55,233 bases of DNA. Origin: Candidatus Cloacimonadota bacterium. Lineage in GTDB: Bacteria > Cloacimonadota > Cloacimonadia > Cloacimonadales > WRIO01. The position numbers and the translations under genes are program-made. The stretch covers positions 1 to 55,233 of the forward strand of contig JAKPKU010000190.1 in the NCBI GenBank assembly GCA_029553545.1. The letters are read 5' to 3'. Under the pieces are notes generated by a model. It was not told where the DNA came from. It saw only the letters and a program-made list of their open reading frames with translations, and made no database searches. Every line of letters starts with the position of its first letter. The first letter of the stretch is position 1. Of this stretch, positions 48,293 to 55,233 are shown piece after piece.

Positions 48293-48871
48293 TTGCGAGT
48301 ATTTTTAAAGGGTGATCATAAGTTTCCAAAGAGAATTGATGATAATATCTTGGCATACTATGCTAATAACACCGTAGTTATCATGCGTAGGCCAGTGAAG
48401 AGGGTATTGCTTCCACAGAATATTGCGATTAGGAATAATCAACCATACTTATGTGCATTATGGGGAGAGATGAGTCTGAATATCAAGAGCATATTTGCCG
48501 ACTATGCAAAGGGTTATAAGATCTGTAGTAGGCAAAAAAGGACACAAGGAGTGTCTGCATTTAGTATGTTTATTTATTTTTTATACAGATTACAGAGGCG
48601 TTATTTGGTGCAAATAAAGGAAATGACAGTAACCTTTGTGATGAGTATTTTCAGCCAATTTAATACAATAAAAAAACTAATGAAGAATTCTCTTTTATAT
48701 TCTTTAAACAGAAGGTTTTATCAACAAAACTGCAAACTAATTGAGATAGTAAAAACGCCTGAATCGCCCCAAAAAGCTAATATAAATGTTTGTGCAAAAG
48801 AAGAAGATGCAAATGCGTGTGCTCATGATAAGATTGGCTTTTTAGGCGATGATGATGGGGGAGATCCATAA
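48293..48871 (+). CDS. Orphan basic protein of unknown function
   Basis: I do not recognise this 192-residue protein. It starts at a TTG (48293) preceded by GTGGAGGG. The N-terminal 140 residues are strongly basic (RRPVKRVLLPQ, RRYLVQIKE, LNRRFYQQN) with a motif-like core LWGEMSLNIKSIFADYAKGYK. The C-terminus is acidic and Cys/Asp-rich, ending GDDDGGDP. No signal peptide or membrane segment is clear. It is flanked by long non-coding stretches on both sides. The arrangement recalls cargo-like or phage-derived orphan genes, but no function can be given. It could also be a false gene; the well-placed Shine-Dalgarno and length favour a real one. Confidence 0.6.
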   Translation: MRVFLKGDHKFPKRIDDNILAYYANNTVVIMRRPVKRVLLPQNIAIRNNQPYLCALWGEMSLNIKSIFADYAKGYKICSRQKRTQGVSAFSMFIYFLYRLQRRYLVQIKEMTVTFVMSIFSQFNTIKKLMKNSLLYSLNRRFYQQNCKLIEIVKTPESPQKANINVCAKEEDANACAHDKIGFLGDDDGGDP

Positions 48872-54593: not shown

Positions 54594-54940
54594 GTGAGGA
54601 CCAAATAATGTAGGGGCGAGCTGTGCTCGTCCGCCAGCGACGAAGTCGCATGCATCTCTTCCGGCTACCTTTAAAAAAACCTTTCACGAATGTGAAAGTA
54701 CCTCACCTTCGACGAAGTCGAAGTACCTAACTTTTCACGGAGTGAAAATACCTAACCTTTACGGAGTAAAGTGCCTAACCCGCAACGAAGTGAGGACCAG
54801 ACAGTTATTTGTATTTACAAAGCTATATTATTGTGAATGAGAGATTTTTAAAATAAGGACTTATCCTTATATATTTCTTTCTACCAGAAAGAAATACCAA
54901 ATGTAAAATTCACGAGCAGCTAATTGTAGGTACAATTAGC
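54594..54940. repeat. Array of hairpins with covarying stems
   Basis: Ten or more short inverted repeats stand in a row. Most clearly: GCGAC-GAA-GTCGC (54637-54649), CTTTCAC-GAAT-GTGAAAG (54681-54698), CTTCGAC-GAA-GTCGAAG (54707-54723), TTTTCAC-GGA-GTGAAAA (54732-54748) and CTTTAC-GGA-GTAAAG (54757-54771). From the third to the last of these the spacing is about 25 bases, with TACCTCAC or TACCTAAC-like linkers. Others are GGGCGAGC-TGT-GCTCGTCC (54614-54632), TTTGTA-TT-TACAAA (54808-54821), ATAAGGA-CTTA-TCCTTAT (54853-54870), ATTTCTTTCT-ACC-AGAAAGAAAT (54873-54895) and GCTAATTGTAGGTACAATTAGC-type pairing (54919-54940, 10 bp). A 10-base direct repeat GTGAGGACCA is at 54594 and 54790. Stems differ but stay paired. 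Confidence 0.9.
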
Positions 54941-55093
54941 CTTAATTGTACACCTTCGCATATCAACTTGTAAAGACAAAAAACCTATAATGAAAAGCTA
55001 CGACTTAAAGCTGGTCAAAACCCTCCTATGTCAAACATCTCGTGCATGAAAAAGGCTCCACTTACCTGTTCGTAGTTGTCCATCTCACATATA

Positions 55094-55233
55094 GAGACCT
55101 TTGATTTAGAAATTTACAAAAAAAGTGAGAATATAATGCCCTAATTTAAGCTAAATCTATACCTTTTTGTCAGAAATCTATGTATTTTGGAGCTTTTTTA
55201 CCTCCCTTTTGTTGGTCTATCCAAAATTTGGAC
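55094..55233 (-). repeat. Right arm of 140-bp terminal inverted repeat
   Basis: This is the reverse complement of 72-211 with 135 of 140 identical bases. It runs to the last base of the window, stopping in the middle of the outer palindrome, so the true element continues outside. The window very probably ends here because an assembly broke at this repeat. Confidence 0.9.

Follow-up and report, generated by a model that had tools for sequence, protein, structure and literature searches.

A near-ordered array of DNA hairpins in a Cloacimonadota genome as a candidate REP/BIME-like repeat with a probable link to a RAYT-type transposase

How can neighboring hairpins share the same loops and linkers and yet carry stems of different sequence, each of them perfectly self-complementary? 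The question is raised by a short region close to one end of the window, that is, the whole 55,233-nucleotide stretch of DNA analyzed here, which lies on contig C40 of a 2.88-Mb genome assembled in 268 contigs. Read directly and by script, positions 54637-54799 contain five perfect hairpins with constant loops, followed by a sixth, terminal unit (T), confirming the arrangement described in an earlier sequence-only reading (Table 1). The common plan of hairpin plus linker holds for four of the five hairpins, each followed by a TACCTMAC-like linker, and fails for the hairpin with the GCGAC stem (g), which has no such linker and is part of an upstream REP section. The proposed continuation of the array into AT-rich hairpins was likewise only partly borne out: these hairpins are real, but they belong to another dispersed repeat (K), which places the end of the array proper at 54799. 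The array region folds better than 100 of 100 dinucleotide shuffles (z -5.6). From sequence comparison we infer, with a probability of roughly 0.6, that the array belongs to the REP/BIME-like repeats, is non-autonomous, and spreads by transposition as single-stranded DNA with the participation of RAYT1, a transposase encoded on another contig of the same genome.

Table 1. Features of the hairpin array and the adjoining repeat (window coordinates)
Feature	Positions	Strand	Remark
Composite element R + g + A + hairpins 1, 2, 3a + T	54606-54799	+	194 bp, copied whole
GTAG-type REP (R), GTAG GGGCGAGC-TGT-GCTCGTC	54610-54631	+	Repeat copies in own genome
Hairpin g, GCGAC-GAA-GTCGC, partner of R	54637-54649	+	
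Head A: CCTTTAAAAAAACC + hairpin CTTTCAC-GAAT-GTGAAAG (54681-54698)	54668-54698	+	
Linker TACCTCAC	54699-54706	+	
Slot-1 hairpin CTTCGAC-GAA-GTCGAAG	54707-54723	+	
Linker TACCTAAC	54724-54731	+	
Slot-2 hairpin TTTTCAC-GGA-GTGAAAA	54732-54748	+	
Linker TACCTAAC (second occurrence)	54749-54756	+	
Slot-3 hairpin CTTTAC-GGA-GTAAAG	54757-54771	+	
Linker TGCCTAAC	54772-54779	+	
Terminal unit T, CCCGCAACGAAGTGAGGACCA	54779-54799	+	Common to elements flanking RAYT1
K element, separate dispersed repeat with AT-rich hairpins 54872-54896 and 54919-54940	54806-55093	+	

The linker-hairpin pattern has 57 matches in the genome and the terminal unit has 84 copies, and strict linker-hairpin-linker units number 70, versus 0 in a reversed control. 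From ~293 kb of loci around the pattern matches, 116 internal units and 51 arrays were parsed; about fifty copies of the cassette lie between genes in this one genome, with 50 of the 51 arrays located outside mechanically called open reading frames of at least 110 aa. The order of the hairpins is near-fixed across the 51 arrays: a head (A or B-P), sometimes a T unit, then slots 1, 2, and 3, and T. Each slot accepts only certain stems, namely, CTTCGAC or CTTTCAC in slot 1, TTTTCAC, CTCTGAC, C[AG]TTGC, or CTTTGC in slot 2, and CTTTAC or CTTTTC in slot 3. The units, which are 23-25 bases each with nothing in between, can be absent, yet the order is almost always preserved, the exceptions being a repeated slot 1 or two heads in a few arrays (L016, L022, L028, and L031). 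Thus, the expectation of further loci that combine the same loops and linkers with new stems was correct with respect to the loci, whereas the stems come from a short recurrent list. The cassette is a short palindrome present in many intergenic copies, as is typical of REPs, and the arrays are mosaics of several palindromic units per cluster, as in BIMEs. The composite element that contains the window array matches loci L014 and L025 over its full length, with identical ends (89.7%), and L028 and L029 over nearly its full length; given full-length matches at ~90% elsewhere, R, g, and the cassette were copied together there. No consistent target-site duplication was seen at the left ends of the composite copies inspected by eye. 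Repeat runs containing GTGTGTTGTTAAAAAAA adjoin cassettes at two loci (L026 2560-2900 and L024 1890-2400).

The alternative stems of each slot are few and recurrent and differ by paired changes. When distinct variants are counted, 95.0% of the cells of 17-base hairpins and 97.0% of those of 15-base hairpins are paired, versus 85.7% in shuffles in both cases; two-sided cells number 15 versus 4.5 and 7 versus 1.8, respectively, substantiating the compensated stem changes proposed from the sequence. Perfect pairing together with a C-GNA-G loop characterizes 11 of the 13 variants that occur two or more times, compared with 2 of 18 singletons (Fisher p 1e-4), a contrast that does not in itself demonstrate selection at each site, because a single random mutation usually breaks a hairpin. 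In most singletons, one side of the stem is disrupted. Because the recurrent variants are intact and the singletons mostly are not, it follows that intact hairpins are copied and the copies then decay. Stem pairing is not maintained at each locus separately; rather, the masters are intact and the copies drift, so that the idea of selected pairing survives as a statement about which copies multiply and is abandoned for individual loci. Half-and-half hairpins, such as CTTCGACGCAGTCAGAG and CTTTACGAAGAAAAG, found once each, look like recombinants of two stem types at the common core.

C-GNA-G loops are found in 110 of the 116 internal units (GAA in 75, GGA in 21, and GCA in 14). The core of the T unit reads GC-GAA-GC in 50 copies and AC-GAA-GT in 13, with 4 half-changed copies, and GTA and GCA loops also occur. 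Among triloop hairpins with a stem of at least 5, this loop accounts for 4 of 5 in the array versus 0 of 101 in the rest of the window; with a stem of at least 6, it is present in 0 of 56 in 134 kb of unselected contigs of the same genome and in 2 of 191 in 400 kb of a same-genus genome, a sample in which no hairpin clusters were detected. In passages of one source, C-G-closed GNA loops are described as extraordinarily stable DNA mini-hairpins, with d(GCGAAGC) melting at 78 C (PMC4686876, citing Hirao 1994 and Yoshizawa 1997); there they are in vitro DNA hairpins that serve as aptamer tools, and these passages claim no natural repeat family. The cassette resembles such mini-hairpins in its G-N-A loops closed by C-G, with N variable, and in the exact GCGAAGC core of T, but its stability is expected to be lower because A-T is the second pair in most stems. 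A strict C-GNA-G loop, in which only N varies among the recurrent variants, would mean that a DNA motif known chiefly from in vitro work is also used in nature, and would argue for folding as DNA. Computed DNA folding energies did not tell the two strands of the cassette apart because the parameter set includes no bonus for GNA loops.

The genome encodes two REP-type HUH transposases. RAYT1 (contig C113:15449-16096; 216 aa) reaches the cut-off of the NCBIfam RAYT family NF047646 (80.5 bits versus 80), matches the PDB entry 4ER8 (TnpA-REP; 6e-8), and contains the HUH-type motif NHVH (NHVHILL) along with the YI-NPVKAGLV motif with the tyrosine (NYILNNPVKAGLV); the cut-off, the HUH motif, and the YI-NP tyrosine together place this protein among the RAYTs. 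RAYT2 (contig C20:945-1547; 200 aa) resembles RAYTs but scores below the cut-off (60.3 versus 80); five GTAG REPs lie to one side of its gene, and two in inverted orientation lie to the other. The R-type REP, GTAGGGGCGANCNNNGNTCG, is present in 74 copies in the genome. The presence of two RAYT-type genes, along with the dispersed, intergenic, and palindromic character of the cassette and its mosaics with true GTAG REPs, supports the REP-like identity that had been considered for the array. RAYT1 is flanked on both sides by inverted C elements with the layout GCTTCGCTG-CACAACTA-NNNN-TAGTTGTG-GGTAC-(GTTTAAA hairpin)-TACCCGCAGCGAAGC, the end of which is the core of the cassette T unit and runs on as GAGGACC in other copies. 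A cassette is present at a distance of ~0.6 kb on just one side of RAYT1, with the T core on both sides inside the C elements; the canonical REPtron arrangement, in which cassettes lie to both sides of a RAYT gene, does not occur. The proposed link between the two is this terminal unit, common to the cassette and the flanks of RAYT1.

Judged by eye, the C element (L068 and other copies) could fold into a three-way junction, with the outer stem GCTTCGCTG/CAGCGAAGC, the arm CACAACTA/TAGTTGTG, and a long GTTTAAA arm. Again by eye, some C elements were seen to have B-P-slots inserted at the T unit and others to lack them, possibly a filled/empty pair; in an empty-site search inside the genome, the matches were swamped by other repeats. 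The flanks of RAYT homologs of the order contain perfect hairpins, with GTA on the 5' side of 25 of 40 distinct stems, versus 9.6% by chance. On the opposite strand, the cassette linker (GTTAGGTA) places GTA directly 5' of each stem. The terminal unpaired GTAG is present in the adjoining R and absent from the cassette hairpins, which have GTTAGGTA ahead of them on one strand, and the tag before the cassette stem is GGTA, not GTAG, when the outermost stem pair is counted.

Under the mechanism that we propose, RAYT1 would bind hairpins folded in one strand of the DNA during replication, cut beside them, and paste copies at other sites. Multiplication would continue only for copies with intact stems and loops, and copies that have landed would decay through one-sided mutations. 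Whole hairpin-plus-linker units would be lost or swapped through recombination between identical linkers and loop cores, so that the order would be kept and several stem alleles would be found per slot. To our knowledge, REP multiplication has so far been inferred, not watched. In an extended version, which we consider unlikely, a RAYT-type enzyme would read the hairpin alleles in their near-fixed order as one composite substrate, with the ultrastable C-GNA-G mini-hairpins serving as folding nuclei and the constant linker (opposite strand, GTTAGGTA) as both the guide and the cutting site. The two RAYT-type genes, the three linked kinds of repeats, and the approximately fifty cassettes provide natural variants for testing what RAYTs require of a hairpin.

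Movement of the cassette by an enzyme other than RAYT1, be it RAYT2 together with the GTAG REP, the IS200/IS605-like TnpA encoded on contig C186, or a lost transposase, is conceivable, if doubtful. About one third of the arrays are joined to a GTAG REP or its partner hairpin, both of which go with RAYT2, and the IS200/IS605 TnpA gene is at hand in the genome, but many arrays have no adjoining GTAG REP, and the terminal unit is common to the cassette and the elements flanking RAYT1. Alternatively, template-switching repair (quasipalindrome correction) in replication could make the hairpins and keep them perfect without any transposase, a process compatible with stem types that differ on both sides and with the half-changed intermediates that were found. 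Yet, the half-changed forms are almost all unrepaired singletons, the small recurrent list of stems in near-fixed order points to copying of cassettes, and dispersal to about 50 sites is left unaccounted for; regeneration of stems by this route, raised in the sequence-only reading, is not needed and appears quite improbable. Hairpins with variable stems and constant spacers are also reminiscent of attC sites, but the short units of the cassette, with no genes between them and in near-fixed order, make an integron-like array of recombination sites hardly credible. The double-hairpin elements of fungal mitochondria were considered for comparison as well.

The array could also act as RNA, with the transcribed hairpins stabilizing or terminating mRNAs of the upstream gene. 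The window array is located 3' of the RND pump gene in the sense orientation, its hairpins also form as RNA, and secondary RNA roles are possible for REPs of other species (PMC3733652). However, individual loci show one-sided decay, and the 39 arrays with both neighbors known lack orientation bias (11 tandem sense, 9 tandem antisense, 13 with divergent neighbors, and 6 with convergent neighbors), which does not favor the proposed mRNA 3' stabilizer, even though a generic RNA effect is compatible with orientation alone because hairpins form from either strand. Overall, we find it improbable that an RNA function accounts for the array.

A mobile REP/BIME-like repeat thus being the preferred reading, the class is already known, and it is the form that is unusual, in that several hairpins with C-GNA-G loops are combined in one cassette, in near-fixed order and with a constant linker. 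The cassette shares with GTAG REPs and BIMEs mobilized by RAYT (TnpA-REP) the short perfect palindromes, the intergenic location, the many copies, the mosaics of different hairpins, the complementary stem changes between subfamilies, and the RAYT genes in the genome (PMC3733652, PMC8266576). It differs in comprising 2-5 different hairpins in near-fixed order and one orientation, with an 8-base linker, and in hairpins that have C-GNA-G loops and no GTAG tag. In TIRYTs/TIRtrons, RAYT genes lie between long inverted repeats, some of which form repeat families (PMC3733652); similarly, long inverted, multicopy elements that share the terminal unit flank RAYT1, whereas the cassette is a separate multi-hairpin unit, distinct from the repeat that borders the RAYT gene.

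The sequence-only reading had staked itself on further loci in this genome or in its relatives; many exist in the former, and none was found in the latter. Among 125 genomes of the phylum, the general linker-hairpin-linker pattern was present in this genome only (124 others negative), and a narrower exact-array pattern had 0 matches in GTDB species contigs, own genome left out. In viral contigs, the general pattern had 12 matches, attributable to chance only, with 0 hairpin arrays. RAYT1 homologs within the order were found in 64 of 99 genomes of relatives. The same-genus genome G001 contains neither the cassette nor a RAYT1 homolog, and the correlation between the two is one of two genomes only, the cassette being known from one species. 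An RND homolog from the same genus, only 38% identical, was not accepted as an ortholog of the pump gene.

Several additional features were observed. On contig C186 (L051 254-1869), the IS200/IS605 TnpA adjoins a 419-aa RRXRR plus HNH protein that is IscB/IsrB-like by domain content. Related-looking proteins of ~200 aa (GDHKFPKRI...LAYYANN), with no match to an NCBIfam or Pfam family, are encoded in the window (48293-48871) and near RAYT1 (L026 3-641). At the Rfam gathering score, the array has no match, and the sole match in the window is a cobalamin riboswitch elsewhere (RF00174; 33291-33456, minus strand; 83.2 bits). Finally, positions 72-215 and 55089-55233, near the window ends, contain a 145-bp sequence in opposite orientations (95.9% identity), which is present once more in L061 and in part in L020; these copies may be the termini of an insertion sequence where the assembly is interrupted.
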